Shown here: positions 2 through 27,663 of the stretch, piece by piece | How positions within the stretch are numbered: the stretch's first letter is position 1 | Layout of the letters: every line of letters starts with the position of its first letter | Origin: a virus | Virus record (IMG/VR): IMGVR_UViG_3300049734_000023 | Coordinates: 1 to 35,431 of that record | Strand: one strand, 5' to 3' | Length of the DNA stretch: 35,431 nt | The notes under the pieces: model-generated | The model's input: only the letters and a program-made list of their open reading frames with translations | What the model was told of the DNA's origin: nothing | Database searches by the model: none | Made by a program: the position numbers and the translations under genes

Positions 2-1219
2 GGCCCCATTCTGGTTATTGCCCCGATTCGCCCCATGTACATGGTATGGCCCAAGGAGATAGCTAAGTGGGACGAATTTAAGCATCTCTCATACACCATC
101 CTTCATGGTGACGAGAAAGATGACAATCTTAATAAGATGGTCGACATTTACCTCATAAATCCCGAGGGTCTCAAGTGGTTTATGAAAATGGGAGGGATGG
201 AGAAGATCAAACCTGAGTTGCTCATAGTGGATGAGTCCACGAAATTCAAGGATTACGCTACGGCCAGGTTTAAGCTCATGAAACCATACCTGAGCTACTT
301 CAAGCGTAGAATGATCCTAACGGGGGAGCCTGCTCCTAATGGGTACATAGACCTATTCGGTCAGTGCTTCGTAATGGACCAGGGCCGCACTTTAGGCCGT
401 TACATAACCCACTATCGTGCGAATTACTTTGTCGAGTCCGGATATGGCGGTTACGACTACAAGTTGCGGCCGGGAGCGGACAAGGAGATTCAGGAGAAGT
501 TGAAGCCCTCCGTTATGCGGCTCGCCGCCGAGGACCACCTCGAGATGCCGGAGCTAATTTTTGACGACATCTTCATCGAACTTGATCCAGCGAGTCGCAA
601 GATTTACAAGCAATTCGAGGATGATTTCTTAGCAGAAATTGGGAGCGCAACTATCGCTGTGTTTAATGCGGCGGCTAAGGGCACTAAGTGTAGACAAGTA
701 GCAAATGGTGGGGTGTATGACGAGTTCAAGATAGCCCACCACGTCCACGATATCAAGACGGCAGCGATAGTTGACCTCGTGGAGCAGCTCCAAGGAAATC
801 CGTTGCTCGTAGCTTATGAGTTCGAGCATGATCTTGAGAGACTGCGAAGAGTGTTCCCCCAGGCTCCTTGCCTTACGGGAATGACAGGGAAGAAATTGGA
901 GGAAGTGATCAATGGTTTCAACGAAGGAACAATTCCAGTTTTACTTGCGCACCCTCTCTCAGCGGGTCATGGGCTTAATCTACAAGAAGCTTGCCACCAC
1001 GTATGCTACTATGGACTCACCTGGGACCTTGATTTGTACCATCAGTTTTACAAACGTGTGTGGAGACAAGGTAACCCACATAACAGAGTTTTCGTTCACC
1101 GAATACTCGCTAACAAGACACTCGACAGAAAGGTCGCTCGTGTCCTCCTACAGAAAGACTCTGATCAGAAGGCTCTCCTAGCAGCCCTTCAAGTCAAGAA
1201 AGATGAGGAAGATGAATGA
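2..1219 (+). CDS. SNF2/DEAD-like helicase, 5' end cut by window edge
   Basis: The reading frame is open from the left window edge, so this is the C-terminal 405 residues of a superfamily 2 helicase of the SNF2-like phage type. The Walker A segment lies outside the window. Visible motifs in order are VIAP (motif Ia region, first residues), LLIVDEST (motif II, about residue 75-82), MILTGEPAPN (motif III, about 104), a C-terminal LLAHPLSAGHGLNLQ segment (motif V) and QFYKRVWRQGN (motif VI with the arginine finger). Such proteins remodel or unwind DNA using ATP in phage replication or recombination. Its stop overlaps the next start as ATGA, which suggests one operon with the kinase. An internal ATG at 35 exists, but the conserved residues before it argue against it being the start. 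Family confident; precise role inferred. Confidence 0.9.
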   Translation, partial: GPILVIAPIRPMYMVWPKEIAKWDEFKHLSYTILHGDEKDDNLNKMVDIYLINPEGLKWFMKMGGMEKIKPELLIVDESTKFKDYATARFKLMKPYLSYFKRRMILTGEPAPNGYIDLFGQCFVMDQGRTLGRYITHYRANYFVESGYGGYDYKLRPGADKEIQEKLKPSVMRLAAEDHLEMPELIFDDIFIELDPASRKIYKQFEDDFLAEIGSATIAVFNAAAKGTKCRQVANGGVYDEFKIAHHVHDIKTAAIVDLVEQLQGNPLLVAYEFEHDLERLRRVFPQAPCLTGMTGKKLEEVINGFNEGTIPVLLAHPLSAGHGLNLQEACHHVCYYGLTWDLDLYHQFYKRVWRQGNPHNRVFVHRILANKTLDRKVARVLLQKDSDQKALLAALQVKKDEEDE

Positions 1220-1791
1220 ATGTAATCGTCAAGTTACACGGAACGTCAGGATCAGGTAAGACCACGGTAGCTCGTGGTCTTATGGAGACAGGTCGTACAG
1301 AAACTATCCTCAACTCAGCTAATCGCAAGCCTGAGGCATATAAAACCATAGTCCCCTTTTTGAAGGAACCTCTCTATGTCCTCGGCCCCTACACCGCCAC
1401 CTGCGGTGGACTTGACAGTTTGTCTGACGTCGAAGATCATATTAGACTCCTCAATACTTATGGTCAACTCGGGCATGTATTCTATGAGGGACTCCTTGGC
1501 TCCGAGTATTATGGCCGAATTGGAGCGGTCTCTGAAGCGTTTGGGCGAAGACATGTCTTCGCCTTTCTTGATACACCCATTGAACTCTGTCTTGAACGGA
1601 TTAAGACCAGGAGAGAGGCGAGAGGTAACACTAAGCCTCTCAATCCAACTAATACCGTCGGGCGAGTCGCCAAAATCGAGCGGCTAAAGCATCGACTTCT
1701 CGACATGGGTCGTGAAGTAGAGGTGATTGACCATCGGTACCCAGTTGACCACATTCTAACCATTTACAAGAACTACGATGCTCAACCTTGA
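1216..1791 (+). CDS. P-loop kinase, likely 5-hydroxymethyl-dU DNA kinase
   Basis: A 191-aa P-loop protein. Walker A is GTSGSGKTT at residues 9-17. A YTATCGGLDSL segment at 60-70 matches the GxYxTxCGGxD signature I associate with phage kinases linked to thymine hypermodification. The hydrophobic-FYEG segment (88-92) sits at the Walker B position, FLDTP is at 117-121, and basic lid residues (RIKTRREARG) are near 128-137. Family members phosphorylate 5-hydroxymethyluracil already in DNA, activating it for displacement. It overlaps the helicase by 4 nt and the following pyrophosphorylase by 14 nt, so the three are co-transcribed and probably translationally coupled. The neighbours are the strongest support; without them it could be a generic nucleotide kinase. 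Biochemical substrate is inferred. Confidence 0.8.
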   Translation: MNVIVKLHGTSGSGKTTVARGLMETGRTETILNSANRKPEAYKTIVPFLKEPLYVLGPYTATCGGLDSLSDVEDHIRLLNTYGQLGHVFYEGLLGSEYYGRIGAVSEAFGRRHVFAFLDTPIELCLERIKTRREARGNTKPLNPTNTVGRVAKIERLKHRLLDMGREVEVIDHRYPVDHILTIYKNYDAQP

Positions 1792-2596
1792 ACTGTTAGA
1801 CAAGTTAAGGTATTGGATTGCCGAACGGGAGAGCATTCGTATTCGGAAGGATGCGGCCCTCCCACGCCCATGGACCCGTGACCCTATTCTCCAGAGCTAC
1901 AAGTTCTGTAACGTCCATCGAGAGGATGATCGAGTGACTCGATGGTTCGCCCAAAACTGGAGAAATGAGAAATACTGGGGTGAAAGTACATTTGTTTCGG
2001 CAATAATCTTTGGACGGACCATTAATTGGCCCGCAACGCTGGAAGCGATTGGCTTCCCCCATATATGGAATAAGGATGAGGTTTGCGACGTAATGGATCG
2101 ACTCCAGGCTATGGGGAAGAAAGTGTATACTGGAGCTTACATGATAACGGCGGGGCCGACTGGCGTTCGTAAGAACAAATGGGTAACGGACAACGCTGAT
2201 TCATACTTCCAGAAACCACCGTTGATTGATCCCAAATCAATTAGAGTGAGTTGGGAACGGATTGTTGGAAACGAGTATCCGTGCGTGGGCCCGTTTATCG
2301 CAGGACAGGTTATCGCTGATCTAAAACAGACTCCACTTCTGGCTAAGGCTGAGGATTGGTGGGATTGGGCAGCGTTAGGCCCAGGTTCGGCCCGAGGCTT
2401 GAACAGACTCCATGGTCGTGATCTCAAATTCTTAATTCCGCAGCCCAGGGGGCTAACAGAAATGCGAGAGGTGAAGTCAGTATTGAAGTTGGAACTCTGT
2501 CTTCAAGATGTGCAGAATTGTCTCTGCGAATTCGATAAGTACATGCGAGTTAAGCTGGGGCAAGGGAAGCCAAGATCAGGTTACCACGGAGCATAA
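1778..2596 (+). CDS. Putative alpha-glutamyl/putrescinyl-thymine pyrophosphorylase (clade 3-like)
   Basis: A 272-aa protein recognised from its N-terminal architecture: a WIAERESIRIRKD helix (13-25), PRPWTRDPILQSYKF (29-43) and the signature NVHREDDRVTRW (45-56). A GNEYPCVGPFIAGQVIADL segment (164-182) resembles the helix-hairpin-helix and following acidic residue of DNA glycosylases, and LGPGSARGLNRL (200-211) follows. Enzymes of this group are proposed to displace pyrophosphate from activated 5-hydroxymethyl-dU in DNA with an amino acid or amine. It overlaps the kinase gene upstream, as expected for consecutive steps. The clade assignment is from memory of sequence signatures, not a search. 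The nucleophile used cannot be predicted. Confidence 0.8.
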   Translation: MLNLELLDKLRYWIAERESIRIRKDAALPRPWTRDPILQSYKFCNVHREDDRVTRWFAQNWRNEKYWGESTFVSAIIFGRTINWPATLEAIGFPHIWNKDEVCDVMDRLQAMGKKVYTGAYMITAGPTGVRKNKWVTDNADSYFQKPPLIDPKSIRVSWERIVGNEYPCVGPFIAGQVIADLKQTPLLAKAEDWWDWAALGPGSARGLNRLHGRDLKFLIPQPRGLTEMREVKSVLKLELCLQDVQNCLCEFDKYMRVKLGQGKPRSGYHGA

Positions 2597-2597
2597 C

Positions 2598-2861
2598 ATG
2601 GCACATGAATCTATACAGCCAGAAGTTATAAATGTAATGAATCGTTTGGGCAACGTTATTGACGAAGCATTCAATGGTAAACCCTTGCCTAAAAACAGAA
2701 GGTGGGGATTTGTTCTACTCTGCTTCGAATTTGGTCCAGATGATGGAACTCATAGAATGAATTACATAAGTAATGCAGAGCGAGAAAACATGCTAACGGC
2801 TCTCAAAGAATTAATTGCTAATTTTGAGGGTCGCATGATTGATAAGGGGGGTACAGCGTAA
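2598..2861 (+). CDS. Hypothetical protein inside modification cassette
   Basis: An 87-aa protein I do not recognise. The ATG at 2598 follows the stop of the pyrophosphorylase by one base and has GGAGC upstream, so it is preferred to an upstream in-frame start at 2508 that would overlap the previous gene by about 90 nt. The protein is mixed alpha/beta in composition (NRLGNVIDEAFNG, WGFVLLCFEFGPDDG), soluble and mildly acidic, with no cysteine pair or membrane segment. The FVLLCFEFG strand with a terminal acidic stretch is the only distinctive part. Its position between two base-modification genes makes an accessory role in that pathway possible, but this is inference from context only. Confidence 0.75.
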   Translation: MAHESIQPEVINVMNRLGNVIDEAFNGKPLPKNRRWGFVLLCFEFGPDDGTHRMNYISNAERENMLTALKELIANFEGRMIDKGGTA

Positions 2862-2862
2862 C

Positions 2863-3027
2863 ATGGAATGTTTAGCCGCAATACCGTGGTATGTGTATTC
2901 CATTTTTGGAGTCATAATAGCTGTAGCATATGGCATGGGAATTGTGCATGGCATAGTGATAGCTAAGAGGGCATACGATAGGGTAATCGACGAGCATATC
3001 GCTCAAAGAAGGAATCAGAGAACATGA
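2863..3027 (+). CDS. Small membrane protein
   Basis: A 54-aa protein with one strong transmembrane segment (IPWYVYSIFGVIIAVAYGMG, about residues 7-26) followed by a charged, Arg-rich tail. The ATG at 2863 lies one base after the previous stop, with a GGGGGG purine run upstream; an earlier start at 2839 would overlap the previous gene. The stop overlaps the next start. Function unknown. It is too far from the late genes to be assumed a lysis protein. Confidence 0.65.
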   Translation: MECLAAIPWYVYSIFGVIIAVAYGMGIVHGIVIAKRAYDRVIDEHIAQRRNQRT

Positions 3028-4010
3028 TGCCATTAATTTTGATCTACAACGATGTAAATGAAGCTTACACTGAGCTTCAAACTATCAAGAAGCACTACAC
3101 TCTCTTAGAAAACACCCGTAACGGGGAGGCATTAGTCTTCCAGAAGCCAGTACTGATAGAGCATACGATGCCGTACCGTCGAGTGCTCTTCGATCCCAAC
3201 CGTAACGCCAATCCTTTCTTCCATTACATGGAAGCTATCTGGATGCTCTCCGGCGACAATTACGTGAAGTTCCCTGCCTCATTCGCCCAGAATATCAAGA
3301 ACTATTCTGACGATGGACATACACTCTACGGGGCTTATGGCTTTAGGTGGAGACAACATTTTATCTTGGATCAGATCGAGTCGGTAATAGGCACCCTCGA
3401 GGGTGACCCACATAGTCGCCGAGCTGTTATTGCTATGTGGGACCCCAAGATGGATGCTGGTTCTGCGACTAAGGACTTGCCTTGCAATACTCATTTGTAC
3501 TTTAGGCTTCTTGAAGGCAAGCTAACTATGACGATCTGCAACCGTAGCAATGACCTCGTATGGGGCATGCTAGGTGCGAACATCGTTCATATGTCGATAC
3601 TTCATGAGTACATCGCTAACGCGAGTGGCCTCCCCATTGGATCACTTTTCCAGTTCACGAATAATCTTCATGTATACAAAGGGTGGGACGGGGAGGACAA
3701 GTATACCTATCGCCAGGATGATTGGTATTCTTTGAATCCCAATATAAGGCGATGGCCGTTTAGCGTGGAAAATTTCGACTGGCTTGAGGCCAGTGAGTTC
3801 ATCGACGACTATCCCCATTGCGACGCTCATACTTACAAGTGCCGCATCCTACGGGATAATGCTCTCCCGATGAGTCTCGCGTGGGGAGCCCATAAAAAGG
3901 GTGAAAATGAGAAAGCTCTTCATTATGCTCGCAAGATTCACGATGAAGATTGGCAAAGGGGGTGTGTACAGTGGTTGGACAGGGCGGGCGCTCGCGCTCC
4001 GAGCGGTTAA
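3024..4010 (+). CDS. Thymidylate synthase-fold enzyme, probable dUMP hydroxymethylase
   Basis: A 328-aa member of the thymidylate synthase/pyrimidine hydroxymethylase family. Visible landmarks: phosphate-binding SRRAVI (Arg132/133), catalytic Cys154 in KDLPCNTHLYF, NRSNDLVWGMLGAN (173-186) matching the RSxD region, and NNLHVY (213-218) matching the DxHxY element. Asn186 occupies the position that is Asn in dUMP-using enzymes and Asp in T4-type dCMP hydroxymethylase, so a uracil substrate is likely. It would make dTMP or 5-hydroxymethyl-dUMP from dUMP and methylene-tetrahydrofolate. The nearby HMdU-kinase-like and pyrophosphorylase-like genes favour the hydroxymethyl product. The start is a double ATG overlapping the previous stop, with AAGGAA upstream. 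Family certain; product inferred. Confidence 0.85.
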   Translation: MMPLILIYNDVNEAYTELQTIKKHYTLLENTRNGEALVFQKPVLIEHTMPYRRVLFDPNRNANPFFHYMEAIWMLSGDNYVKFPASFAQNIKNYSDDGHTLYGAYGFRWRQHFILDQIESVIGTLEGDPHSRRAVIAMWDPKMDAGSATKDLPCNTHLYFRLLEGKLTMTICNRSNDLVWGMLGANIVHMSILHEYIANASGLPIGSLFQFTNNLHVYKGWDGEDKYTYRQDDWYSLNPNIRRWPFSVENFDWLEASEFIDDYPHCDAHTYKCRILRDNALPMSLAWGAHKKGENEKALHYARKIHDEDWQRGCVQWLDRAGARAPSG

Positions 4011-4125
4011 CTTGAGAACGTATCTAGGAGGTCTGTAGGGACTTGCTGCGACTTGCTACGGGCGACCGGCTCTAAGACCCTTACCCGAGCCCGTCAATCC
4101 GCAGCAGCCGTTTTAAGAGGTTTAT

Positions 4126-4368
4126 ATGTCTGCACTTACATCTGCTAAACGAGCCCGTGCGATCAAGCGGGTTCTTCGACAGTTAGCCAAGGAACCCGGA
4201 AACGTGATCCATCTAGCTGAATTCAGGCAACTTGTGCCCGAACGAATTTGTCCCCAGTGTGGGATGAAATTTGATCGATACAGGGTTAACCAGATCTACT
4301 GCTCGGAGAGGTGTCGAAACCTAGCAGGGGTCAAACGACACAGGGAAAGACATGCCAGCGAACGATAG
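4126..4368 (+). CDS. Small zinc-finger protein
   Basis: An 80-aa basic protein. An N-terminal Arg/Lys-rich helix (SAKRARAIKRVLRQLAKE) precedes a four-cysteine module: CPQCGMKFDR (about residues 43-52) and YCSERCRNLAG (about 63-73), a zinc-ribbon or treble-clef pattern with C-x2-C spaced about 17 residues from C-x3-C. The tail is Arg/His rich. Such proteins usually bind nucleic acid. AAGAGG precedes the ATG. It overlaps the DUF3310 gene by 17 nt. Specific function unknown. Confidence 0.75.
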   Translation: MSALTSAKRARAIKRVLRQLAKEPGNVIHLAEFRQLVPERICPQCGMKFDRYRVNQIYCSERCRNLAGVKRHRERHASER

Positions 4369-4867
4369 GCAAGTGGGAGGGAAGCACTACGGCCTGAAGG
4401 AATACCAACACTGGGATATGGTCTGGGATAATGACCTGGATTACTTCCAGGGCCAGATCACGAAATATGTGATGCGATGGAAAGAGAAGAATGGACTCGA
4501 TGATCTCAGGAAAGCCCAGCATTTCCTTGAGAAATACATCGAGCTAAATGAACAGAAGGCAGGAAGATTCGTCAAAACCGAAATTCCTGTACCACCAGAG
4601 GGAGTTACTCAACCGGCGGAATACACCTTAGTTCAAAATCCGGCGGTGATCGAAGATCAACTAGCAAAATCTGCGGCCGAATTTCTACAGTACGTGAAGC
4701 CAACTGGGTGGATCAACTTCTCTTTTGAAGGCGCTGACTCTAACGGGTTTCTGTATACATGTGGTTTATGTAAAACGGAGGTCCGCTGTGCACAATTCGA
4801 ACCTCCGTGGAATAAACACGATGCAAATGATTGTATTAGGGAACAGAAGGCGCGGGCGGCACGTTAG
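4352..4867 (+). CDS. DUF3310-domain protein
   Basis: A 171-aa protein. The N-terminal 65 residues carry the DUF3310 pattern: DRQVGGKHY (5-13), a QHWDMVWDNDLDYFQGQ segment, ITKYVMRWKEKNG and DDLRKAQHFLEKYIE. The C-terminal half (about 75-171) is a separate region with CGLC at about 137-140 and two later cysteines, possibly metal binding. DUF3310 proteins are common in tailed phages near nucleotide-metabolism genes but their activity is not established. This is the last rightward gene before the convergent late block; its 3' end overlaps the 3' end of the opposing lipoprotein gene by 32 nt, with no terminator visible between them. Confidence 0.8.
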   Translation: MPANDRQVGGKHYGLKEYQHWDMVWDNDLDYFQGQITKYVMRWKEKNGLDDLRKAQHFLEKYIELNEQKAGRFVKTEIPVPPEGVTQPAEYTLVQNPAVIEDQLAKSAAEFLQYVKPTGWINFSFEGADSNGFLYTCGLCKTEVRCAQFEPPWNKHDANDCIREQKARAAR

Positions 4868-5465
4868 TGTTGTCGTGACTGTTATCCGTGTTGGTGGTTA
4901 CTGGTTTATTGATTTCGCCATCACGCCCGGCAACTACGCCGTCGCCCCCAATGGTAATATTTGGTCGGACCACTTGCCCCAATCCCGCCCAGTCGAACGG
5001 CACTGGCTTGAACTGTCCTATGGTGTCGAACGCCTTGCCCGATACACCTACTATCGCGCCGTAGCTGGCCTGCGTAGTGTAGGCTTGATTGTTGCTCTGT
5101 GTTACGCCAAGCCTGTAGCCATAGTACCCCGAGGCTACAGCTGTAATGGAGGGGAGAAGCACTGCCGCCCACTGTAAGGCGTTGTCCCGTGGTGGCTCGA
5201 TGGGAGTTGTACTCGGCCCATTATTCAGAGCTAACATCATGACTGCGATGCTCTTCGCAGTAGAGTCGCCGTGTTGGGCTATGGCTGCGATCGCGGCGGC
5301 ATTAGCTTTTCTGATCTCCGCGTTAGCCATCGCTTGAGACTGTGCTGCTACGAGGTACTGATCATACCCCGGAGTAGCACATCCTGTAAGTGCAGCTACT
5401 AAGCAGATAAGTGGGCGCATGGTAAATTGGAGGACAGGGCTACGGAAGTAGCCCTGTTTCCTCAC
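4836..5465 (-). CDS. Lipoprotein, possible outer-membrane lysis or envelope component
   Basis: A 209-aa protein with a lipoprotein signal: a hydrophobic stretch CLVAALTGC with lipobox LTGC and a following ATPGYDQYL. The mature part has an Ala-rich helical region (AMANAEIRKANAAAIAAIAQ), a hydrophobic stretch with YYGYRLGV, then an Asn/Thr/Pro-rich tail. The GTG at 5465 overlaps the upstream stop as GTGA, a junction this phage uses repeatedly, and GAGGACAA precedes it. An ATG at 5420 would give a shorter, more classical signal peptide but has no ribosome binding site. A hairpin lies between the two starts. An o-spanin role is possible but the protein is long for that. The start is uncertain. 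Confidence 0.7.
   Translation of the reverse strand: MRKQGYFRSPVLQFTMRPLICLVAALTGCATPGYDQYLVAAQSQAMANAEIRKANAAAIAAIAQHGDSTAKSIAVMMLALNNGPSTTPIEPPRDNALQWAAVLLPSITAVASGYYGYRLGVTQSNNQAYTTQASYGAIVGVSGKAFDTIGQFKPVPFDWAGLGQVVRPNITIGGDGVVAGRDGEINKPVTTNTDNSHDNTNVPPAPSVP
5434..5457. other. Perfect hairpin between lipoprotein gene start candidates
   Basis: A 10-bp perfect inverted repeat (ACAGGGCTAC / GTAGCCCTGT) with a GGAA tetraloop. Only a weak T run follows on the plus strand and none on the minus strand, so it is a poor terminator. It may be an mRNA-stability or translational-control hairpin for the lipoprotein gene, and it becomes non-coding if the ATG at 5420 is used. Confidence 0.6.
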
Positions 5466-5659
5466 TTGTCCTCTTCTTCGTCGTCGTCATCTTCCTTGGG
5501 CTCATTTTCGCCCAAGGGGACAACACCTTCGGAATTGGTGCTGTCAATACGACCAGCCCGTTCGTGACCTTGATCCTGGTTCGGACCCTTGTCCTTTGGG
5601 GCGGGAGCCTGCTCCGGCTTCTTGGCAGGAGCCGGAGCAGGAGTCTTTGTTGCAGTCAT
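5462..5659 (-). CDS. Pro/Ala/Lys-rich protein with acidic tail
   Basis: A 65-aa protein of low complexity. The N-terminal third is PAPAPAKKPEQAPAPKDK and the C-terminus is a run of Asp/Glu (KEDDDDEEEDK). It is predicted to be disordered. TAGGAG precedes the ATG with good spacing. Its stop overlaps the GTG of the lipoprotein gene. No family is recognised. It resembles flexible linker or chaperone-like phage proteins only in composition. Confidence 0.7.
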   Translation of the reverse strand: MTATKTPAPAPAKKPEQAPAPKDKGPNQDQGHERAGRIDSTNSEGVVPLGENEPKEDDDDEEEDK

Positions 5660-5707
5660 CGTGGTCTCCTATGTTGTGCTACGTTATCCACCCCGGACGG
5701 GACTGGA

Positions 5708-6118
5708 TTAAATCTTGCCCTTCGCCTTGTTGGCGACCGCCGTCTGGTTGTTACCGTGCAACCAGATGTTGAGGACGTGCCTTTCGAACAACATCGCGGC
5801 CTCGCGGCTGATGCCGTTCCACTCGCCCCTTGCCTTTTCCGTCCCATCGACCTTCATGAACATGACGATGTCGAATTGCTGGTTCTTGGGCTTGTCACCC
5901 TTGAATCCCAGGAAATTGGCCTGGTCGACCGTCATGCCCATGATTGATGCGACAATGGAATCGTCGCAGTGATGGTAGGTATTGACGTGATCCGAGAACG
6001 GTTGCCCGTCCTGCTTGACGTGAAACTCAACGTCTACCTTGTGAAACGTCACGGCCGCATCGGGCGTGGGATCGGTTGTGTTGCCGAGATCAATCGGCTT
6101 TGGTGCAGCTGCGGTCAT
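5708..6118 (-). CDS. Conserved-looking hypothetical protein, late region
   Basis: A 136-aa protein I cannot assign. The start at 6118 (MTAAAPKPIDLG) is chosen because AAGGAG sits 6-7 bases upstream; a longer in-frame reading to 6220 overlaps another small gene and has no such site. The sequence has a Pro/Thr-rich N-terminus, then TFHKVDVEFHVKQDG (beta-rich), a YHHCDDSIVASIMGM helix and QQFDIVMFMKVDGTEKARGEW. It lies among the last genes of the late block, near membrane and tail-associated genes. A minor virion or lysis-timing role is possible but unsupported. Confidence 0.75.
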   Translation of the reverse strand: MTAAAPKPIDLGNTTDPTPDAAVTFHKVDVEFHVKQDGQPFSDHVNTYHHCDDSIVASIMGMTVDQANFLGFKGDKPKNQQFDIVMFMKVDGTEKARGEWNGISREAAMLFERHVLNIWLHGNNQTAVANKAKGKI

Positions 6119-6240
6119 CAATTTCTCCTTGTCAAATCGTACGGTTTGCCTGTCTTCTCCGCGATTCTCAGCACTCGCTTGCCTACCGTGTACTTCCTCA
6201 GTAGATTGAGGATAGCACACAGCACATCAAGCGAGTGCAT
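6118..6240 (-). CDS. Tiny basic protein (40 aa)
   Basis: A 40-aa frame beginning MHSLDVLCAILNLLRK and ending KPYDLTRRN. Its TGA stop overlaps the next ATG by one base (TGATG at 6116-6120), and it fills an otherwise empty gap, which favours a real, translationally coupled gene. Its own ribosome binding site is weak (TAGG). The N-terminal half is amphipathic helix-like and the rest is basic (YTVGKRVLRIAEKTGK). No family recognised. Confidence 0.45.
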   Translation of the reverse strand: MHSLDVLCAILNLLRKYTVGKRVLRIAEKTGKPYDLTRRN

Positions 6241-6258
6241 GAGCCTACGGATCACTTG

Positions 6259-6939
6259 TTACTTCTTGCCTAGTGCCGGGTTGGGCTTGCCGCCCTCAAA
6301 AGGGCCAATTACGAACAGCCAACCCTCCTGAGTGTAGACCCACTTGTAGTCCGCATCCGGTTCCGTGGGCGGCTCGGTCGGTGGAGGATCGATGGGGCCG
6401 ATCGGCTTGGGCTTGTCATACGGCCCTTGGACATAGTACCAGCCATCTTCCCGCATCTCCCACTTCCCACCACCGACTTGCCAATCCGGCGGCAGCGGAC
6501 GCACCTTGGCGAACGGACCCCAGACGAAGTACCAGCCGTCCTCTTCATGCTCCCACGTGATACGAGGCGGGCCCATTACAGGCGGCTCACCTGGATCGAC
6601 CGGCGGCGGGTCACCAGGACCGGGCTTCTCTTGCGGACCGGCCAAGGCGTAGAACCATCCTCCCTCGACAGACACCCAGTGCCCACCATCGATGGGTACC
6701 GGACGTGGCCGTGCGTACGGGCCAAATCCGAAGTACCAACCCTCGGCGGTGAAGTACCATCGCGGCCCACCAGTTCCGGGTTGATCCGGCGGAACACCGG
6801 GGTCGGGCGGAAGTGGATTGCCCGGGTCTTGCGGGTTGTACGGCGTGATCACTGCGTTGAACGGCAGCACCGTTTGCGATGGCCCCCCATCGGGAGCCAA
6901 CGGCATTACCGTGTAGATACTACGAGTGTTTCTTGCCAT
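6259..6939 (-). CDS. Tryptophan-repeat, proline-linker protein
   Basis: A 226-aa protein built from about five copies of a 20-24-residue unit of the form W-x5-8-GWYF-x2-GP-x3-KP-x-P. Examples are WYFTAEGWYFGFGPYARPRP, WEHEEDGWYFVWGPFAKVRP, WEMREDGWYYVQGPYDKPKP and WVYTQEGWLFVIGPFEGGKP. The units are separated by Pro/Asp-rich linkers (PPVDPGEPP, PPPTEPPTEP). The N-terminal 50 residues are not repetitive. The start MARNTRS at 6939 is used because AAGGATG sits just upstream; it overlaps a small membrane-protein gene by 20 nt. Aromatic repeats with Gly-Pro turns suggest binding to peptidoglycan, polysaccharide or another repetitive surface. Function unknown. Confidence 0.8.
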   Translation of the reverse strand: MARNTRSIYTVMPLAPDGGPSQTVLPFNAVITPYNPQDPGNPLPPDPGVPPDQPGTGGPRWYFTAEGWYFGFGPYARPRPVPIDGGHWVSVEGGWFYALAGPQEKPGPGDPPPVDPGEPPVMGPPRITWEHEEDGWYFVWGPFAKVRPLPPDWQVGGGKWEMREDGWYYVQGPYDKPKPIGPIDPPPTEPPTEPDADYKWVYTQEGWLFVIGPFEGGKPNPALGKK

Positions 6940-7075
6940 TGCTTTCATCCTTCTCAGTTGGTTTGAGGTATACTGCCAGTACTCCCAATGCCCCAATTAC
7001 CAGGGCAAATGGGAGTACCACATACAGTGTTACCATGCCTAGATAGCCTAACATGGCCAACACTGTAAGGTCCAT
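6920..7075 (-). CDS. Small membrane protein (51 aa)
   Basis: A 51-aa protein, MDLTVLAMLGYLGMVTLYVV onward, with one long or two closely spaced hydrophobic segments (about residues 5-20 and 21-37) and a charged C-terminus (KPTEKDESNGKKHS). AAGGAG lies six bases before the ATG, an excellent ribosome binding site. The gene overlaps the Trp-repeat gene start by 20 nt. Adjacent to another TM protein, so it could belong to a lysis cassette as a holin or holin-like protein, but no lysis enzyme was recognised nearby. Confidence 0.7.
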   Translation of the reverse strand: MDLTVLAMLGYLGMVTLYVVLPFALVIGALGVLAVYLKPTEKDESNGKKHS

Positions 7076-7078
7076 CTG

Positions 7079-7264
7079 CTACTCCTTCTTGTTCTTTCGC
7101 CATTCTTCAAGGGCAATAATTCGCCCCACCATCTGCTTCACTTCCTCTCTCAACTGCTTAAGTGATTGGCCTCGCTCAGTTAAAATTAAATAGCCAAGAC
7201 CAACTACTGCAGCACCGAGTAGCCCCACGAGCCACCACAATGCAGATATGACTTGTTCGGACAC
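7079..7264 (-). CDS. Single-TM protein with cytoplasmic coiled coil
   Basis: A 61-aa protein. An N-terminal transmembrane helix (ISALWWLVGLLGAAVVGLGY, about residues 6-25) is followed by a charged heptad-like helix (SLKQLREEVKQMVGRIIALE). The start is GTG at 7264, two bases or less after the upstream stop, without a Shine-Dalgarno site, so coupled translation is likely. Size and topology suit a holin-type or inner-membrane spanin-like lysis protein, but heptad membrane proteins in phages have other roles too. No family recognised firmly. Confidence 0.7.
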   Translation of the reverse strand: MSEQVISALWWLVGLLGAAVVGLGYLILTERGQSLKQLREEVKQMVGRIIALEEWRKNKKE

Positions 7265-7265
7265 A

Positions 7266-7439
7266 TCAAGTCGGGTCTGGTGGTGGTACGAGGTCTTTCA
7301 GTCCTGCCACTTGCTTCTCTAGATCATTGTTCTTCCTCATTAACGACTTAATGATCGCTCCTTGTCGTGCTACTTCATCCATGGCCGTGTCCCTTTGGGC
7401 CTTTAGGATGCCTACCAAATCTTGAGTGTTAAAGTCCAC
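7266..7439 (-). CDS. Small coiled-coil protein (57 aa)
   Basis: A 57-aa frame starting with GTG at 7439, which shares a base with the TAG stop of the upstream Ig-like gene. The upstream sequence GTGAGGCGTA supplies a GAGG site. The protein is a predicted continuous helix (QDLVGILKAQRDTAMDEVAR, then RKNNDLEKQVAGLKDL) ending in PPPDPT. It lies directly between the Ig-like protein and the TM coiled-coil protein, so the two helical proteins may pair. Function unknown. Confidence 0.65.
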   Translation of the reverse strand: MDFNTQDLVGILKAQRDTAMDEVARQGAIIKSLMRKNNDLEKQVAGLKDLVPPPDPT

Positions 7440-8476
7440 TACGCCTCACTGTACATCAATGTATCATCTAATTCTGCCCCTGTACCAATATTATTCTGAG
7501 TAAATGTAGCTGACGTAGCGGGGGAGCATGATGCGACGCAGCCCCAAGCTCCAGGTACTGCGTTCGCTGTAAATGAAAGTGACGTAGCGATACCACTCCC
7601 ATCGGTATTCGCTGTACACACGTTCGATGCATTGCTAAAGAGCGCACTTGCTCCCGAGGCTGGGTTAGTGAAGGTTACAGTCACTCCAGCAATGGCCGCC
7701 CCACCGGCATCCACTACCTTAGCCTTCATGGTAGCTCCGAAGGCAGTAGACACATCAGCGGATTGGTTGTTACCCGCGTTTATCTGTACCGTGGTAGGGG
7801 TGGGTGTGTAGATCGTTTCGTACACGTCACAGTAACAACCATATGGGTTGCCACTAGACCTATCCGCACGTATCTTCGCTGTACCTGCCGTCGCACCTGA
7901 CTCTATGTCTACGGTGAGTCGGCCTATGGAACTGGTGTAAATATTTTGGGCTGCAGTGGACGTAGTACCGTTCATCTTGAAGTCTGCGGGTGTGGGGGAC
8001 AACTTTCTAACCCGCATTTGGAACGAGGGTATTGATCCACCTTTAGTATTGATTACATCGTACACTATATCCGTGAATACAGTGTTTGTTGGCTTACTTT
8101 GGAATTCACCTGATCGTATGCTAATAAGACCTAGCACTACTCCAGAGTCATTCGTATTTCTGAATGGGAGGAGAAGTGAGACTGATGGTTCTGCTACGAG
8201 ACTGGCTGTAAGATTCCATGTTCCTTCGATGCTATTTACAGCACATAGGGCAGGTAGTTGGGCTATGCCGCTTGCATTCGTGGTGGTATTCTGAGGATTG
8301 GAGCCGAACCCAAATGCTCCACTTGGACCTGATGAAGAAGGAAACAACCATTTAACCTGAGTACCGACGTAGGGTGTGCCATCCGCCTTGAGCACCCGGA
8401 CTCTTGGAGAAACAATCCCTAGGGTGATGTTGCGGGCTTGTGGAGCCCCATCAACTAATTCGATAGTGCTAGGCAT
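7439..8476 (-). CDS. Ig-like (Big_1/invasin-type) domain virion protein
   Basis: A 345-aa beta-rich protein. The C-terminal 110 residues (about 230-335) match bacterial Ig-like group 1: VQINAGNNQSADVSTAFG, AKVVDAGGAAIAGVTVTFTN, then TDGSGIATSLSFTANAVPG. The N-terminal part (13-110) is a related module, VRVLKADGTPYVGTQVKW with NASGIAQLPAL. The middle (115-225) is another beta domain. Phage Ig-like domains decorate fibres and capsids and help weak binding to cell-surface carbohydrate. It follows the tail-fibre-like gene, its ATG sharing one base with that gene's TAA, which suggests a fibre-associated protein or an extension of the fibre. Confidence 0.75.
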   Translation of the reverse strand: MPSTIELVDGAPQARNITLGIVSPRVRVLKADGTPYVGTQVKWLFPSSSGPSGAFGFGSNPQNTTTNASGIAQLPALCAVNSIEGTWNLTASLVAEPSVSLLLPFRNTNDSGVVLGLISIRSGEFQSKPTNTVFTDIVYDVINTKGGSIPSFQMRVRKLSPTPADFKMNGTTSTAAQNIYTSSIGRLTVDIESGATAGTAKIRADRSSGNPYGCYCDVYETIYTPTPTTVQINAGNNQSADVSTAFGATMKAKVVDAGGAAIAGVTVTFTNPASGASALFSNASNVCTANTDGSGIATSLSFTANAVPGAWGCVASCSPATSATFTQNNIGTGAELDDTLMYSEA

Positions 8477-9396: not shown

Positions 9397-11726
9397 CAGA
9401 ATCTCCCAGTTAAGGCTTTGATCGTGTTACTGAGTGCTCTCGTGGTATAATTGCTAATTGTATCACCCACGGTACCACCCAACTCTTTAACTTGGAGTCG
9501 CAGAGCTTCGATTTCGCGCATGATGTCTGCGCGTCCCTTCGCTCGTGGAGCCATCCGTGCAACCTGCTGTTCCAACTCAGATATCCTACTTGTGATCGGG
9601 GCTACCTTCAGAAGATTGGCCACCTTACCTAGCACACCACCCTCGGCCGCACCTGTGACGCCTTCCACTACTTGAGCTGTAGCCGAATCAGCTGGTTGAG
9701 CTGCCTTCATTGCACCGGCGTAAGCAGCCCCTCCCACGGGACCCATGAACAAAGCCGGAGCATACTTAACAACATCGGCGATCTTCTTGGCCCCACCATA
9801 AATGGGTTCACTCTCGGCCCGTGCTTCATGTTCCTGAGCTGCCGCTAATGTCTTATCACGGTCACCGAATCCGACCAAATTCTTCGCTCCACCGTAAGTG
9901 TCTGAAGCCACGTCCATTATCGCATCCATAGTCTGCGACAAAGCAGAGTTTGGATTCTTCATGGACCGAGGAACAGCCGGAGTGGGGGCCACACCCGGCG
10001 CAGCCCCTTGAGCTGCCTTAGCCCGATCCTCCTTGGCCTTGATTTCTTGCCATTCCTTGAAGGCTATGTCCTTAGCCTCAGCAAGCACATAGTTACCTTG
10101 GCGAACGAGTACGGGTACACGTTGGTTCGCATACTTCACGAACTCAACTTTCTCCTCCAGGGTATTAATCAGTGCTTCTCTGGATTCTGGATCCATGCGA
10201 GGATTCGGGATACGCATGGTAGCACTACGCATATCTGCGTCGGATATGCCGTTACCTGAGCCATACTGCCTGAGAAGACCAGCAACCAAGTCACCTGAAT
10301 ACTTCTCGAATTGTTCTACATTCTTGCCCTTCTCGGACTTGCCCATCCCTACGGCACCCAGGGTATTCTCCAGTACCATGGGGATTTCGTAGGCACCAGT
10401 ATACATTGGTGACTTATTTAATTGTTTTAACTTAGCGATGGCAGATTCCATCTCCTGTACAGTGGATTCTGTGGACCACTTTTGAAGTGCCTTCTCATTC
10501 TCACTTCTTATGTTCTCGAAATGTTTGACATCAGTAGGCGCAGGAGTGAAGCCCACAGGACCAGTGGGTCGAACCGCCCCAGATGGCGGAAGGCCAGGGC
10601 CACCGGTAGGGGCACCACCAGGAGCGGCAGGAGCAGGACCACCAGCAACACCACCGATACGCCTGAGACCATCTTGGATCGCAGCGATGTTATTCCCATG
10701 TTGACGTACTCCGTTCTCATCACCTACCTGTTGGGCCTGTGCGAGAAGTTGCTGCTCTTCTTGAAGATTAGCCATCAAGACTTGAGCGTTGGCTTGAGGA
10801 GCCCCAGGCTTCATCCCAGGAGGTGGTGGAGGCCCGTTGCCTACTCCTGGGCCTTCGAGCGTCGGACCCGGAGGCGGCGGAACTTGTACCCCGTTGATAG
10901 GGGGCGTAGCAGGACCTGTAGGCGGTTGTAGCGGAGGCGGCGTACCCGGACCCGTCGGCGGCATGATGCCCGTATCAGGCGTTCTAGGGGGAATTTCAGG
11001 CGCTGGTCCCACTAACCTTGCTTGGCCACTCTGGAGGAATGGGAGGGCTTGAGACAGCGGAACGCGCTGCTTGCTCCCGTCACCCATTTCGATTTCGACC
11101 ATTTGACCCTGGGCATTTTGCTGGGCTGCGAGAGCCTGCGGAGCACCGGGTCGAGTAACCATTTGACCAGACGGGGCTACCATCCCAGAATACTTGGGAT
11201 CAACAGGTTTGAGGGATTCAAGGAGTATCTTGCCCCGAGCAGCTACGTTCGGGCGTGTAGACTGGGCCATCTCCAACGCCATCTGGTACTCCTGAGCTGC
11301 ACTAGCTGCGTCGGGAGCCGTGCCCCCAAATCCAGATGGCGCGGAGGTCTTGAGACCAGCTCGTATACGAGCACGTTCGCGTTCGTCAGCTTCCTGAGCC
11401 AAGCGTTCCTTGACTTGACCAAGAGCAAGAGGGGCAGTTTGGGGTTCGGCACCGAGTCGCTTGACTTCTTCTGATTCACCGGCGAGTGCGCGTGCAAGAG
11501 CTTCTTGATACTTCTTCGACAGAGCTGCTCGTTGGCCAGGAATTTCTTCCATAGCAAATTTAGCATTAGCTATCTCGGCAGCATCGTTGAAGCGTGATGT
11601 ATAATCCCCCAACTCACGCGTAGGAGTGCCACGGAGGACTATCGCAAGAGCACGTTTCTGCTTCTCTTTGATGTCCTCTTCTTCAGCCCGGAATGGGTCA
11701 AAGAAGAATCCGAGATCATTTTCCAT
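9396..11726 (-). CDS. Large internal/ejection-type virion protein
   Basis: A 776-aa protein, the largest of the three internal-protein candidates. It has charged helical N-terminal segments (10-170), a Pro/Gly-rich disordered centre (about 240-400, with runs such as PPTGPGTPPPLQPPTGPATP), a helical domain at about 405-570 including FEKYSGDLVAGLLRQYGSG and SDADMRSATMRIPNPRMDP, and a small glycine-rich hydrophobic region (APALFMGPVGGAAYAGAM) near 670. The C-terminus is a coiled coil (ITSRISELEQQVARMAP). Amphipathic plus coiled-coil content suits a protein ejected with DNA. AGGAG precedes the ATG. No transglycosylase or peptidase motif seen. Role inferred from position next to the other internal proteins. 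Confidence 0.8.
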   Translation of the reverse strand: MENDLGFFFDPFRAEEEDIKEKQKRALAIVLRGTPTRELGDYTSRFNDAAEIANAKFAMEEIPGQRAALSKKYQEALARALAGESEEVKRLGAEPQTAPLALGQVKERLAQEADERERARIRAGLKTSAPSGFGGTAPDAASAAQEYQMALEMAQSTRPNVAARGKILLESLKPVDPKYSGMVAPSGQMVTRPGAPQALAAQQNAQGQMVEIEMGDGSKQRVPLSQALPFLQSGQARLVGPAPEIPPRTPDTGIMPPTGPGTPPPLQPPTGPATPPINGVQVPPPPGPTLEGPGVGNGPPPPPGMKPGAPQANAQVLMANLQEEQQLLAQAQQVGDENGVRQHGNNIAAIQDGLRRIGGVAGGPAPAAPGGAPTGGPGLPPSGAVRPTGPVGFTPAPTDVKHFENIRSENEKALQKWSTESTVQEMESAIAKLKQLNKSPMYTGAYEIPMVLENTLGAVGMGKSEKGKNVEQFEKYSGDLVAGLLRQYGSGNGISDADMRSATMRIPNPRMDPESREALINTLEEKVEFVKYANQRVPVLVRQGNYVLAEAKDIAFKEWQEIKAKEDRAKAAQGAAPGVAPTPAVPRSMKNPNSALSQTMDAIMDVASDTYGGAKNLVGFGDRDKTLAAAQEHEARAESEPIYGGAKKIADVVKYAPALFMGPVGGAAYAGAMKAAQPADSATAQVVEGVTGAAEGGVLGKVANLLKVAPITSRISELEQQVARMAPRAKGRADIMREIEALRLQVKELGGTVGDTISNYTTRALSNTIKALTGRF

Positions 11727-24236: not shown

Positions 24237-26338
24237 TTCGGCTGCCTCGCTCCCGCTGCGGTTGCAGTAGCATTTCTCTCTGCGTTCTGGGCCGCCACGT
24301 TATCTCGGCGCATTTTATCCCAAAACATCATGTTGTCTTGTTGGCCCTTCATCTCTGTAGCCCTGAGGGACGCCGCTAGTTGTTGGTTACCTTGCTGTAT
24401 CTTCTGATTTGATTGCTGTTGAGCCATGCGAAGTTTAATATCACCCTCTCTCTGCATCTGTACAAGCTTGAGATTGCCCTCACGAGCTTGAAGAGCCAAC
24501 TTCTGCTGCCCCTCTTGAGCTTTCTGCTTTCCTTCTTGTTCCATAAGCTTGAGTTCACCTTGAACCCGCTGCTCTTCTGGGGAAGGTTTCGGTGGTTGCG
24601 GATGCATGAGATTCTGCTGTACCTGCGCGAACGTCTTATCCAACTCACCCTCGAATTTCTTGCCAACTTTGAACCCAGCAAGCGAGAATTGAAGCAATCT
24701 CATCACAAACGGGCCCATCGTCGGGTCTTCACGAATCAGTGGAAGCATCTCCTTCAAATAATTCGTGATTGTTACCATGTACTCCATCCGATCCTGCTTC
24801 TCGGCTTGGAAATCGATGTCGGAAAGTGTATCTGACTCTACGCGCGCGCGTAGCGTAAATTCTGGGTTCTTGAGGAGTTGCATGGCTGCAATAACCAGCT
24901 GCTGATCCTCATTCATAAATTGTACTTGCGCGAGCTTGGCTATCTCCTCGGGAGCAACGTGCTTCCGCATCAATTGTCCTTGTATGTCGAATACCGTTGA
25001 GCAGTATTCGACCACCGCCTTTTGGCGATCCTGTATTCGCATGGATGCATACTGCGCCTTAATCTTCTGTGCTCCCAGCGTTTCCGATGCCTTTGAGGCC
25101 CCACGGATGATATCCGCCATCCCTGTAACCTCATAAATTTGACTCTTAACATCTTCTCGGTTTTTGAGAAGTTGATCAAGGACCGCAACGATCTGGTCCA
25201 ATGGGAGCCAATCAACCACTCCCTTAAAGCCACCCTTCTCGGCAAAAGCAGCCCATTGGTCAACTGGGATGAGTGTATTCTCCGCAGCATTGTTTGTAAG
25301 CTGTTGAATCTGCGGGGAGGCTTTATCATACGCGCCCGCGACACGACAGGCGCGTACCAACAACGAAATACGTGTATTGATTTCGTTGAGTTCTCTGTAT
25401 TGATCGGAGGCGTAGTGATAGTCAGGAATCGGAATGTATTCCCCATTGCTAACAGTAGCAGTGAGGAATTTGGGACAAGGATAGAACCCTTCCAATCCAA
25501 GAAAGTCGTCCTTCGTATCCAGGATTTTGTCGTGATGCTTGCTAAACCAAAGTACTTGTTTCGCTTCCTTGTCCCAAATCTCATAAATGGTCGCTTGTTG
25601 AAAAACAGTGGATTGAGTTTGTACTTGGAAGTCGGTTTTCTTTGGAGAATAGTCAAGAGGAATTTTGCCAGCAGTTTTCTTGCCAAATCGCTTGATCAAC
25701 TTGTCCTTAGTCATGTATACCTTGCGGGCGATCCATGAGATTTCGTCCCATGTACGAGCGGGAGACCACAACAAGTCCTCCCAGTACACGTATTCGTCGC
25801 AAATGTATTCCTTGACTACCTCGTCGTACTCGACTGGCGCACCGTCTTGTTCGTAGGTGTTTTCCTCCACCTTATGTTCGATATCGCAGCCATAAGTATG
25901 CCACGAAGCCCCTACGCCAGGCACGAGTTGGTCTTGAACTGCCTGACGGAAAATATTGAATGTCTTAAAGTCACGATTATTGTGACAAGACAGTGCACGC
26001 TCCAAGATGAGGCACGCTACACGCGCCACGTCATCTTGCATGTCTTTGAATTCTCTGTTAACAGACGGGTGCGGAGTTTGATTAATCAACGCAGTCGTCA
26101 TTATGTTAATGTTGGCTGCGAAGAGGTTGAACCGTCTCTCCATTGACGGGTCGATGCCACTTGCTTCGTACCTTTCGGCACGAAATTCCTTTACAATCTT
26201 ACGTGCGCGCTTCCTCCAGCGCTCCAAATCCTTCTCTTTCTCAGCATTGGTGATTTCAGACTGCCAACGCTGATAAATTCCACCAGGTTCGGCCTGGAGT
26301 TCCTTCAAACTCTCAATTCTTTGAGAATCAGCCATCAT
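24233..26338 (-). CDS. Portal protein
   Basis: A 701-aa protein, within the size range of P22-type portals. The N-terminus has charged helices (DLERWRKRARKIVKEFRAER), then RRFNLFAANINIMTTALINQ and RQAVQDQLVPGVGASWHTYG. The stem/wing region has YEIWDKEAKQVLWFSKH and CPKFLTATVSNGEYIPIPDY. The later part YRELNEINTRISLLVRACRV plus VTGMADIIRGASKASETLGA is very typical of this portal group, followed by a long Gln/Lys-rich coiled coil (about 580-690) forming the barrel-type C-terminus. It forms the dodecameric DNA channel. Its start overlaps the terminase stop (ATGA). Confidence 0.9.
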   Translation of the reverse strand: MMADSQRIESLKELQAEPGGIYQRWQSEITNAEKEKDLERWRKRARKIVKEFRAERYEASGIDPSMERRFNLFAANINIMTTALINQTPHPSVNREFKDMQDDVARVACLILERALSCHNNRDFKTFNIFRQAVQDQLVPGVGASWHTYGCDIEHKVEENTYEQDGAPVEYDEVVKEYICDEYVYWEDLLWSPARTWDEISWIARKVYMTKDKLIKRFGKKTAGKIPLDYSPKKTDFQVQTQSTVFQQATIYEIWDKEAKQVLWFSKHHDKILDTKDDFLGLEGFYPCPKFLTATVSNGEYIPIPDYHYASDQYRELNEINTRISLLVRACRVAGAYDKASPQIQQLTNNAAENTLIPVDQWAAFAEKGGFKGVVDWLPLDQIVAVLDQLLKNREDVKSQIYEVTGMADIIRGASKASETLGAQKIKAQYASMRIQDRQKAVVEYCSTVFDIQGQLMRKHVAPEEIAKLAQVQFMNEDQQLVIAAMQLLKNPEFTLRARVESDTLSDIDFQAEKQDRMEYMVTITNYLKEMLPLIREDPTMGPFVMRLLQFSLAGFKVGKKFEGELDKTFAQVQQNLMHPQPPKPSPEEQRVQGELKLMEQEGKQKAQEGQQKLALQAREGNLKLVQMQREGDIKLRMAQQQSNQKIQQGNQQLAASLRATEMKGQQDNMMFWDKMRRDNVAAQNAERNATATAAGARQPK

Positions 26339-27663
26339 TGCTCCCTATTCAGACCAGGATTTGTCCGCCAGTCGTTGAATAGGTCTTCAAGATTGAATGC
26401 GTAGGACGGTCCAGCCCTAGCATCCTCTCCTGGAAGAATGATTCTTGAACGAGCAGTTTCAGGAAGATTACCAAATACCACGCCGAGATACCTATGAGCA
26501 TCCGCGATGTGTGAAGACCAATCATGTACCGGCTTATCACGATAGCAACCAAGCTTATCGTCCCATTCTCGCCTGTACGACTTCATTGCTTCAACACCGC
26601 CAGAGCACAGAGGCAAATTCCAGTAGCAATAAGGCAACAACTTGCGCGTAGCAGCTACGCCATCACGAATTTTGTGGTCGGGAATCAAACGGGGGCGATA
26701 ACCACGCTTAATTGTTTGCTCTACAATTGAACGCCCAGTCTGGAGATTCTTGGCTTTCGCATCGTGCGGCAGATACACGTCACGAACATCGCGATTTTCC
26801 ATCTCATCCAAATAGTCATCCCATTCTTTTTCGTTGTTACTATAGACCTCATGGATGAGGACTTGAGATCTGTGCTTTTGGAAGAACAACAAAACCGTAT
26901 CGTCTGTGTATCCAAGGTCGCAGATTACATCAAGAGGAAGGTTGGGGTCAAGGGCAAACTCTTTAATACGACCCTCATTCTCAGCCTTCTCCATATCAAC
27001 GCCGTAGATGGCGCCCTTAAGACTGGCCGTAAACGAGCATTCATATTCTTGCTCATAGTCACTCGCATCCATCTTTGAGCGAATGAGCTCTAGTTCTTCC
27101 TTTGGTAAGATTCCCGACTCGGATGCCTTGAGTACAAGACTGAACTGTAAAGGGTCAGCTTGCGCCTTGCGTAAGGAGTCATAGAAGTGATTTTTACCTC
27201 GTGGCGTACCCCCGTTGACAAGCCATCCTTGTCTATCGCTGAGGCAGGGGAGAATAACTTGTGAAATAGCAGAAGGCCTGATTTGAGCCATTTCATCAAT
27301 GACAGCTCCATCTAAGTACATACCACGGAGAGAGTCTGCCTTTTCCGCACCCAACAGATAAATCTTGGCTGCGTTCTTGAGAGTGACGCGAAGTTCTGAT
27401 TCGTGCGGAGGTGCCGCGAGCAATGGGGCGGCGAATTGCTTCAAATACTCCCATGCCACACGTTTCGCTTGTTGATAATCTGGGGCAATGTACGCAAGTT
27501 GCGGTCGATGCAGCGTACATTCTAGCGCACCGATTATCAAATCATTTACGAATGCTACTGTCTTCCCAGCGCGTCGGTGGCAAACGACAGTAGCAAATCT
27601 GGCCTTCCTGTTATGGAAGGGGATGAAAGCCTTTCTCGGCTGATATGAGAGCTCAGCTTTCAC
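26335..27663 (-). CDS. Large terminase subunit (packaging ATPase/nuclease)
   Basis: A 442-aa terminase. Walker A is CHRRAGKT (28-35); Walker B is AVIDEM (120-125); the coupling motif is NGGTPRG (150-156). The nuclease domain has Asp249 in CDLGYTDDT, Asp301 in LPHDAKAKN and Asp388 in HIADAHRYL, the expected three-acid metal site. It cuts concatemeric DNA and drives it through the portal. GTG at 27663 overlaps the stop of the metallopeptidase-like gene as GTGA. All catalytic residues appear intact. Confidence 0.95.
   Translation of the reverse strand: MKAELSYQPRKAFIPFHNRKARFATVVCHRRAGKTVAFVNDLIIGALECTLHRPQLAYIAPDYQQAKRVAWEYLKQFAAPLLAAPPHESELRVTLKNAAKIYLLGAEKADSLRGMYLDGAVIDEMAQIRPSAISQVILPCLSDRQGWLVNGGTPRGKNHFYDSLRKAQADPLQFSLVLKASESGILPKEELELIRSKMDASDYEQEYECSFTASLKGAIYGVDMEKAENEGRIKEFALDPNLPLDVICDLGYTDDTVLLFFQKHRSQVLIHEVYSNNEKEWDDYLDEMENRDVRDVYLPHDAKAKNLQTGRSIVEQTIKRGYRPRLIPDHKIRDGVAATRKLLPYCYWNLPLCSGGVEAMKSYRREWDDKLGCYRDKPVHDWSSHIADAHRYLGVVFGNLPETARSRIILPGEDARAGPSYAFNLEDLFNDWRTNPGLNREQ

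Follow-up and report, generated by a model that had tools for sequence, protein, structure and literature searches.

Overall, we believe that the left end of viral record IMGVR_UViG_3300049734_000023 (positions 1-35,431, all 35,431 nt of which were analysed and are called the window here) very probably holds the visible part of a thymidine-hypermodification cassette of the type known from phages M6 and PaMx11, in which the enzyme that attaches the side group, an amino acid:DNA transferase (ADDT), lies off the left edge and the modified base carries an amino-acid adduct. Three genes carry this proposal, encoding a 191-aa kinase that would act on 5-hydroxymethyldeoxyuridine (5-hmdU) in DNA, a 272-aa protein of the HMUDK_hel family and a 328-aa homologue of thymidylate synthase (TS). 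Their profile matches and active-site residues, together with a kinase, HMUDK_hel, TS-homologue gene order common to the window, SN1 (very similar to M6), Pam3, RHph_TM26 and PaMx11, support a pathway in which the phage would hydroxymethylate dUMP, phosphorylate 5-hmdU in its DNA and hypermodify thymidine. Such a pathway was proposed in the initial annotation by analogy with known phages, and this part of it stands; the roles given to individual enzymes do not, above all that of the 272-aa protein, the transferase belonging to another family (PF18724).

The kinase and its helical companion

The 191-aa protein scores 26.9 bits against the 5-hmdU DNA kinase family PF18748 (27.1 in a second search; Pfam cut-off 27), and matches a family profile made from 28 homologues, SN1 (M6-like) and PaMx11 among them, with an E value of 3e-76. 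The motifs GTSGSGKTT (residue 9) and TATCGGLD (residue 60) are where the initial annotation had placed them, and the columns invariant across the 28 homologues include G9, G12, G14, K15, G57, Y59, G65, D67, E91, G92 and R132. Judged by motifs and profiles, the protein is, as first proposed, a P-loop member of the 5-hmdU DNA kinase family. PHROG 800 and many RefSeq phage records label this family 'terminase small subunit', in the window (1216-1791) as in PaMx11 gp49 and the M6-group phages, in what looks like a propagated mislabel. The corresponding identification of the 191-aa protein (phrog_800 label) was rejected; the true terminase large subunit sits at 26335-27663.

The 272-aa protein had been read as a clade 3-like aGPT-Pplase. 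Up to an E value of 1 its sole Pfam match is PF18723 (138 bits, E 5e-40; curated cut-off 25), formerly aGPT-Pplase clade 1 and at present named '5-hmdU DNA kinase, helical domain', and its closest annotated homologues, including those of SN1 and Pam3, carry the clade 1 label. The motif NVHREDDRVTRW is at residue 45, as had been noted, and on these matches the protein is not of clade 3. The argument that a clade 3 enzyme might make a new product falls with that assignment, since the protein is HMUDK_hel and the transferase is of a different family.

The AlphaFold model of the protein (pLDDT 95.2) has a helix-hairpin-helix, DNA-glycosylase-like fold. Its six best PDB matches in Foldseek are 8-oxoguanine DNA glycosylases (probability 0.99-1.0), against which it gives Z scores of 10.5-11.4, the top value over 186 residues. 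By motif counting rather than residue-by-residue alignment, Phe173 would occupy the place of the catalytic lysine of OGG1, and the invariant Asp193 would lie near the position of its catalytic aspartate.

The predicted transferase beyond the left edge

It is highly improbable, in our view, that the side group is attached by the 272-aa protein itself, acting as pyrophosphorylase or transferase. HMUDK_hel is distantly homologous to ADDT (hhalign E 9e-4), both were formerly called aGPT-Pplase, and they share an overall fold (Z 11.3 between the 272-aa model and the PaMx11 transferase PUGT, 8z2n). Nonetheless, profiles keep PF18723 and PF18724 apart: the HMUDK_hel profile misses 8z2m, a sequence search of the PDB with HMUDK_hel gave no significant match, and the 272-aa protein has no sequence-profile match to PF18724 or 8z2m, being alike in fold only. 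Furthermore, SN1, Pam3, PaMx11, RHph_TM26 and the relatives of the window have both proteins; in SN1 and Pam3 the separate protein near the clade 1 homologue is the old clade 2, now PF18724, 'Amino acid:DNA transferase'. In PaMx11 the 5-PmdU glycinyltransferase of solved structure (8z2m/8z2n) is gp46, a PF18724 protein, whereas the PF18723 protein is gp50. The transferase function thus belongs to ADDT, and the 272-aa protein is probably not the amino-acid transferase.

A profile search of the window record, which is cut at the left, found no ADDT (PF18724). The record is a fragment, because its left edge falls within the SNF2 helicase gene, of which about 150 nt are lost, and its right edge within a primase-like gene; the two ends show no overlap when compared. 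An exact search of IMG/VR for longer contigs spanning the left edge found none, and contig L003, 100% identical to the window, begins further right. Uncut helicase orthologues of 449-476 aa are present in L004-L007, L077-L084 and L087. The related loci examined comprised 16 reached through the helicase and many reached through HMUDK_hel. The upstream DNA is present in 12 close-relative contigs (L005, L006, L007, L077-L084 and L087; about eight distinct lineages, as some are near-copies), and in every one of the 12 the helicase is immediately preceded by an ADDT gene. As far as each contig extends, the genes run PD-(D/E)XK nuclease, VRR nuclease, ADDT, SNF2 helicase, kinase, HMUDK_hel, TS homologue, (HD) and DUF3310. 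The relatives' ADDT proteins that were tested score 27.7-36.6 bits, just above the Pfam cut-off, their profile matches PUGT 8z2m with an E value of 4e-68, and the model of the L006 protein (pLDDT 93.5) shares the PUGT fold, superposing on 8z2n with a TM score of 0.82 (E 1e-12). Because the window cuts the very helicase that ADDT precedes in these relatives, we infer by analogy that this phage has an ADDT as well, whose end is expected some 150 nt beyond the left edge.

The alternative is that the pathway ends at phosphorylation, leaving 5-phosphomethyl-dU as the final base. A window without ADDT would fit this, and a 5-hmdU DNA kinase does phosphorylate 5-hmdU in DNA to give restriction resistance, the phosphorylated base blocking many restriction enzymes by itself (PMC7653180). 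With ADDT directly upstream of the helicase in 12/12 close-relative contigs that reach far enough, we consider such an ending very unlikely.

The hydroxymethylase and the predicted product

The 328-aa protein was correctly described as having the TS fold; it is 36% identical to the M6 enzyme at 97% coverage, and its closest matches are phage pyrimidine hydroxymethylases (phrog_5131). It has the features of a dUMP hydroxymethylase, namely the TS fold, the catalytic cysteine and asparagine at position 177: Cys154 and the uracil-selecting Asn186 (E. coli position Asn177) are retained, both as located at the outset, and the positions of E. coli Trp80, Leu143 and His147 are replaced by Lys, Asp and Asn, all three being lost in the SN1 enzyme too. 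Loss of Trp80 and Leu143 in TS lets water instead of hydride attack the methylene intermediate. Positions 177, the pyrimidine selector, and 147, the other position linked to modified DNA, best separate the TS homologues of modified and unmodified phage contigs (PMC8670742). Ordinary nucleotide metabolism, with a true TS, a dNMP kinase and no modified base, draws on the PF00303 and general P-loop/thymidylate-kinase matches and is likewise very unlikely, given the altered positions shared with the SN1 hydroxymethylase, the phage hydroxymethylases as top matches, and the tight clustering with HMUDK_hel and, in relatives, ADDT.

In the cassette proposed here, the 328-aa enzyme would put a hydroxymethyl group on dUMP, and the triphosphate would enter phage DNA instead of dTTP. 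The 191-aa kinase would then phosphorylate 5-hmdU in DNA with the help of HMUDK_hel, which most likely holds the duplex while flipping the base out or presenting it. Finally, the ADDT predicted upstream of the helicase, a homologue of PaMx11 gp46, would swap the phosphate for an amino acid. The adduct is probably the final base or close to it, and should protect the DNA against attack by host nucleases; 5-hmdU that carries a phosphate or a further decoration is resistant to many restriction enzymes (PMC7653180, PMC6449724).

The cassette is a further instance of known thymidine-hypermodification systems, and its clade has a gene order of its own. Pseudomonas phages M6 and SN1, whose cassette reportedly makes 5-NedU, have the kinase (PF18748), HMUDK_hel (PF18723) and TS-like hydroxymethylase in the window's order, with ADDT in the same gene region; identity is 28-36%. 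M6-like phages have further components that were not seen in the window, namely Nmad5, an HD nucleotidase and tailoring enzymes of the pyridoxal-phosphate (PLP) and radical S-adenosylmethionine (SAM) types. The Nalpha-GlyT/5-NmdU cassette of Pseudomonas phage PaMx11 consists of gp49 (kinase), gp50 (HMUDK_hel), gp51 (TS) and gp46 (ADDT, PUGT), along with a FAD lyase (gp47) and an acetyltransferase (gp48); a search of the window and its relatives found nothing homologous to gp47. Searches for radical-SAM, PLP-dependent (PALP) and FAD lyase genes, with SN1 and PaMx11 as positive controls, found none in the window record or in the ~40-kb records L078 and L087, whose completeness is not established (a 33-base repeat lies near both ends of one, and none in the other). 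Since no tailoring enzyme was found, the product is likely to be a plain, untailored aminoacyl-thymidine. The amino acid added in PaMx11 is glycine, and the one added here may differ, because the relatives' ADDT is ~27% identical to that of PaMx11.

A near match to the clade's layout is found in Rhodoferax phage P26218 (cultured, short-tailed, 36 kb), with polymerase, VRR nuclease, SNF2 helicase, ADDT, kinase, TS, HD and DUF3310 in that order; its genome differs in having no HMUDK_hel, and in placing ADDT after the helicase instead of before. The published account of P26218 gives a tail of ~9 nm (PMC4657236). Because P26218, with its related replication and modification module, is short-tailed, and because the portal encoded in the window is closest to that of Mx8, it is plausible that the uncultivated window phage is a podovirus, probably short-tailed. 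At the DNA level, window positions 1000-8000 gave zero matches to named phages.

Several points weigh against this reading of the cassette. The kinase is borderline in Pfam, scoring only at the cut-off of its family. The ADDT assigned to this phage comes from relatives that are 58-74% identical to it in the shared helicase and HMUDK_hel proteins. Because the record covers only part of the genome, tailoring genes may lie unseen elsewhere in the phage; in relative L007, a radical-SAM gene stands between polymerase and ligase (a 354-aa open reading frame, L007:3989-5053), and its product may tailor the base in that lineage. The role of HMUDK_hel in phosphorylation is likewise not secure, because glycosyltransferases also accompany the protein and complete phages that have kinase and ADDT do without it.

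All three cassette genes are where they had first been placed, and lie on the plus strand (Table 1). Contrary to the initial description, they are not strictly adjacent: two small open reading frames (ORFs) separate the second from the third. A homologue of the first of these (phrog_35296) is placed elsewhere in L081/L082, ahead of the PD-(D/E)XK nuclease gene. The DUF3310 gene holds the same position in L004-L007, L077-L082, L085 and L087. The strong profile matches of the cassette proteins also include phrog_2396 (E 1e-49). Decay of the cassette was considered and rejected, every ORF being intact and an identical contig (L003) existing. At another locus, L035, the TS-like ORF is about twice the normal length (629 aa) and its family match is interrupted at the catalytic PCN motif, possibly by an intein or some other insertion.

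Table 1. Features at the left end of the window
Feature	Position	Strand	Evidence
SNF2-family DNA helicase, C-terminal ~400 aa	1..1219	+	phrog_62 E 4e-108, Helicase_C E 2e-8
P-loop 5-hmdU DNA kinase (HMUDK), 191 aa	1216..1791	+	PF18748, family profile
HMUDK_hel (formerly aGPT-Pplase clade 1), 272 aa, predicted helix-hairpin-helix DNA-glycosylase-like fold, putative companion/base-presenting protein	1778..2596	+	PF18723, AlphaFold model
Small ORF, 87 aa	2598..2861	+	phrog_35296 E 1e-17
Small ORF, 62 aa	2839..3027	+	no significant family (Pfam, PHROG profile scans)
dUMP-hydroxymethylase-type TS homologue, 328 aa	3024..4010	+	phrog_5131 E 2e-91, PF00303 E 4e-20
DUF3310 protein, 3' neighbour of the cassette	4352..4867	+	PF11753 26.1 bits

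HMUDK_hel and its alternative partners

HMUDK_hel is not bound to the kinase as its partner. When HMUDK_hel loci were grouped into 68 clusters at 80% identity, 26 had the kinase, 24 had a TET-associated glycosyltransferase (TAGT, PF20691), which mostly takes the same slot, and 18 had neither locally, although in one of the latter (L063) a kinase lies elsewhere in the record. Kinase and TAGT never occurred in the same cluster (0/68, against 9 expected by chance; hypergeometric p 2e-7, ignoring relatedness). The same holds across whole records, where, with positive controls, the kinase was found in none of 20 TAGT records and TAGT in none of 19 kinase records; a profile search of the window record likewise found no TAGT. 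The kinase/TAGT label must change at least seven times across a tree of HMUDK_hel, in which the window falls within a kinase-only clade of 12 rows (SH-aLRT 99). HMUDK_hel is absent from the complete phages P26218 and MW202557, which have ADDT, kinase and TS, and from the complete phage MW202897, which has TAGT and TS. Kinase-HMUDK_hel fusions, sought as proof of partnership, were found at none of the loci.

The likeliest reading is that HMUDK_hel is a shared and dispensable protein that presents the base or selects the site, although its Pfam name suggests otherwise. We put forward more tentatively, as a possibility that falls short of being probable, that it is not part of the kinase but a factor of general use that flips out 5-hmdU in DNA or selects its sites, serving kinase and ADDT in some lineages and TAGT or other transferases in others, and that phages have repeatedly swapped the decorating enzyme while keeping the targeting factor and the hydroxymethylase. 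Elements of this pattern have been seen before. In pelagiphage podoviruses of the HTVC023P type, a TS homologue and an HMUDK_hel-type protein lie near PolA; TS and aG/PT-PPlase1 have been described in them, with a glucosyltransferase nearby in some clades, and no shared factor was concluded (PMC9599517). The window belongs to the kinase and ADDT group, unlike the HTVC023P-type clades reported with a glucosyltransferase.

Individual loci add to this variety. In L008, L015, L016, L042, L051, L055, L060, L086, L088 and others, HMUDK_hel has TAGT and a TS homologue close by and the whole record lacks a 5-hmdU kinase; these phages apparently put a sugar on hydroxymethyluracil by a route that shares the companion protein. 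L028 (10879-13672) has group-1 glycosyltransferase-like and radical-SAM/SPASM genes between HMUDK_hel and the TS homologue, with neither kinase nor TAGT, and is a candidate for a different modification. L012, also without kinase or TAGT, has a weak sulfotransferase-like gene directly after HMUDK_hel (10834-11616; 21.7 bits, below cut-off). Two HMUDK_hel copies lie close together in each of the loci L065 and L067, as do two TAGT copies in each of L070 and L072.

Replacing or decorating thymine is a known way of disguising DNA against host defences. The cassette extends the phages that mask their DNA with amino-acid thymidines by one more clade, distinct and probably short-tailed, and hints at a minimal form that lacks tailoring enzymes and has a readily predicted and testable product. 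The pattern of HMUDK_hel partners matters more than the cassette itself. If HMUDK_hel is indeed a shared factor that presents 5-hmdU, rather than a domain of the kinase, its present name is misleading, and one DNA-binding module would serve both phosphorylation and glycosylation of the same base. Modified thymidines occur in TG and TC contexts in M6 and ViI (PMC6449724), and such a module would perhaps explain why only some thymidines are modified.

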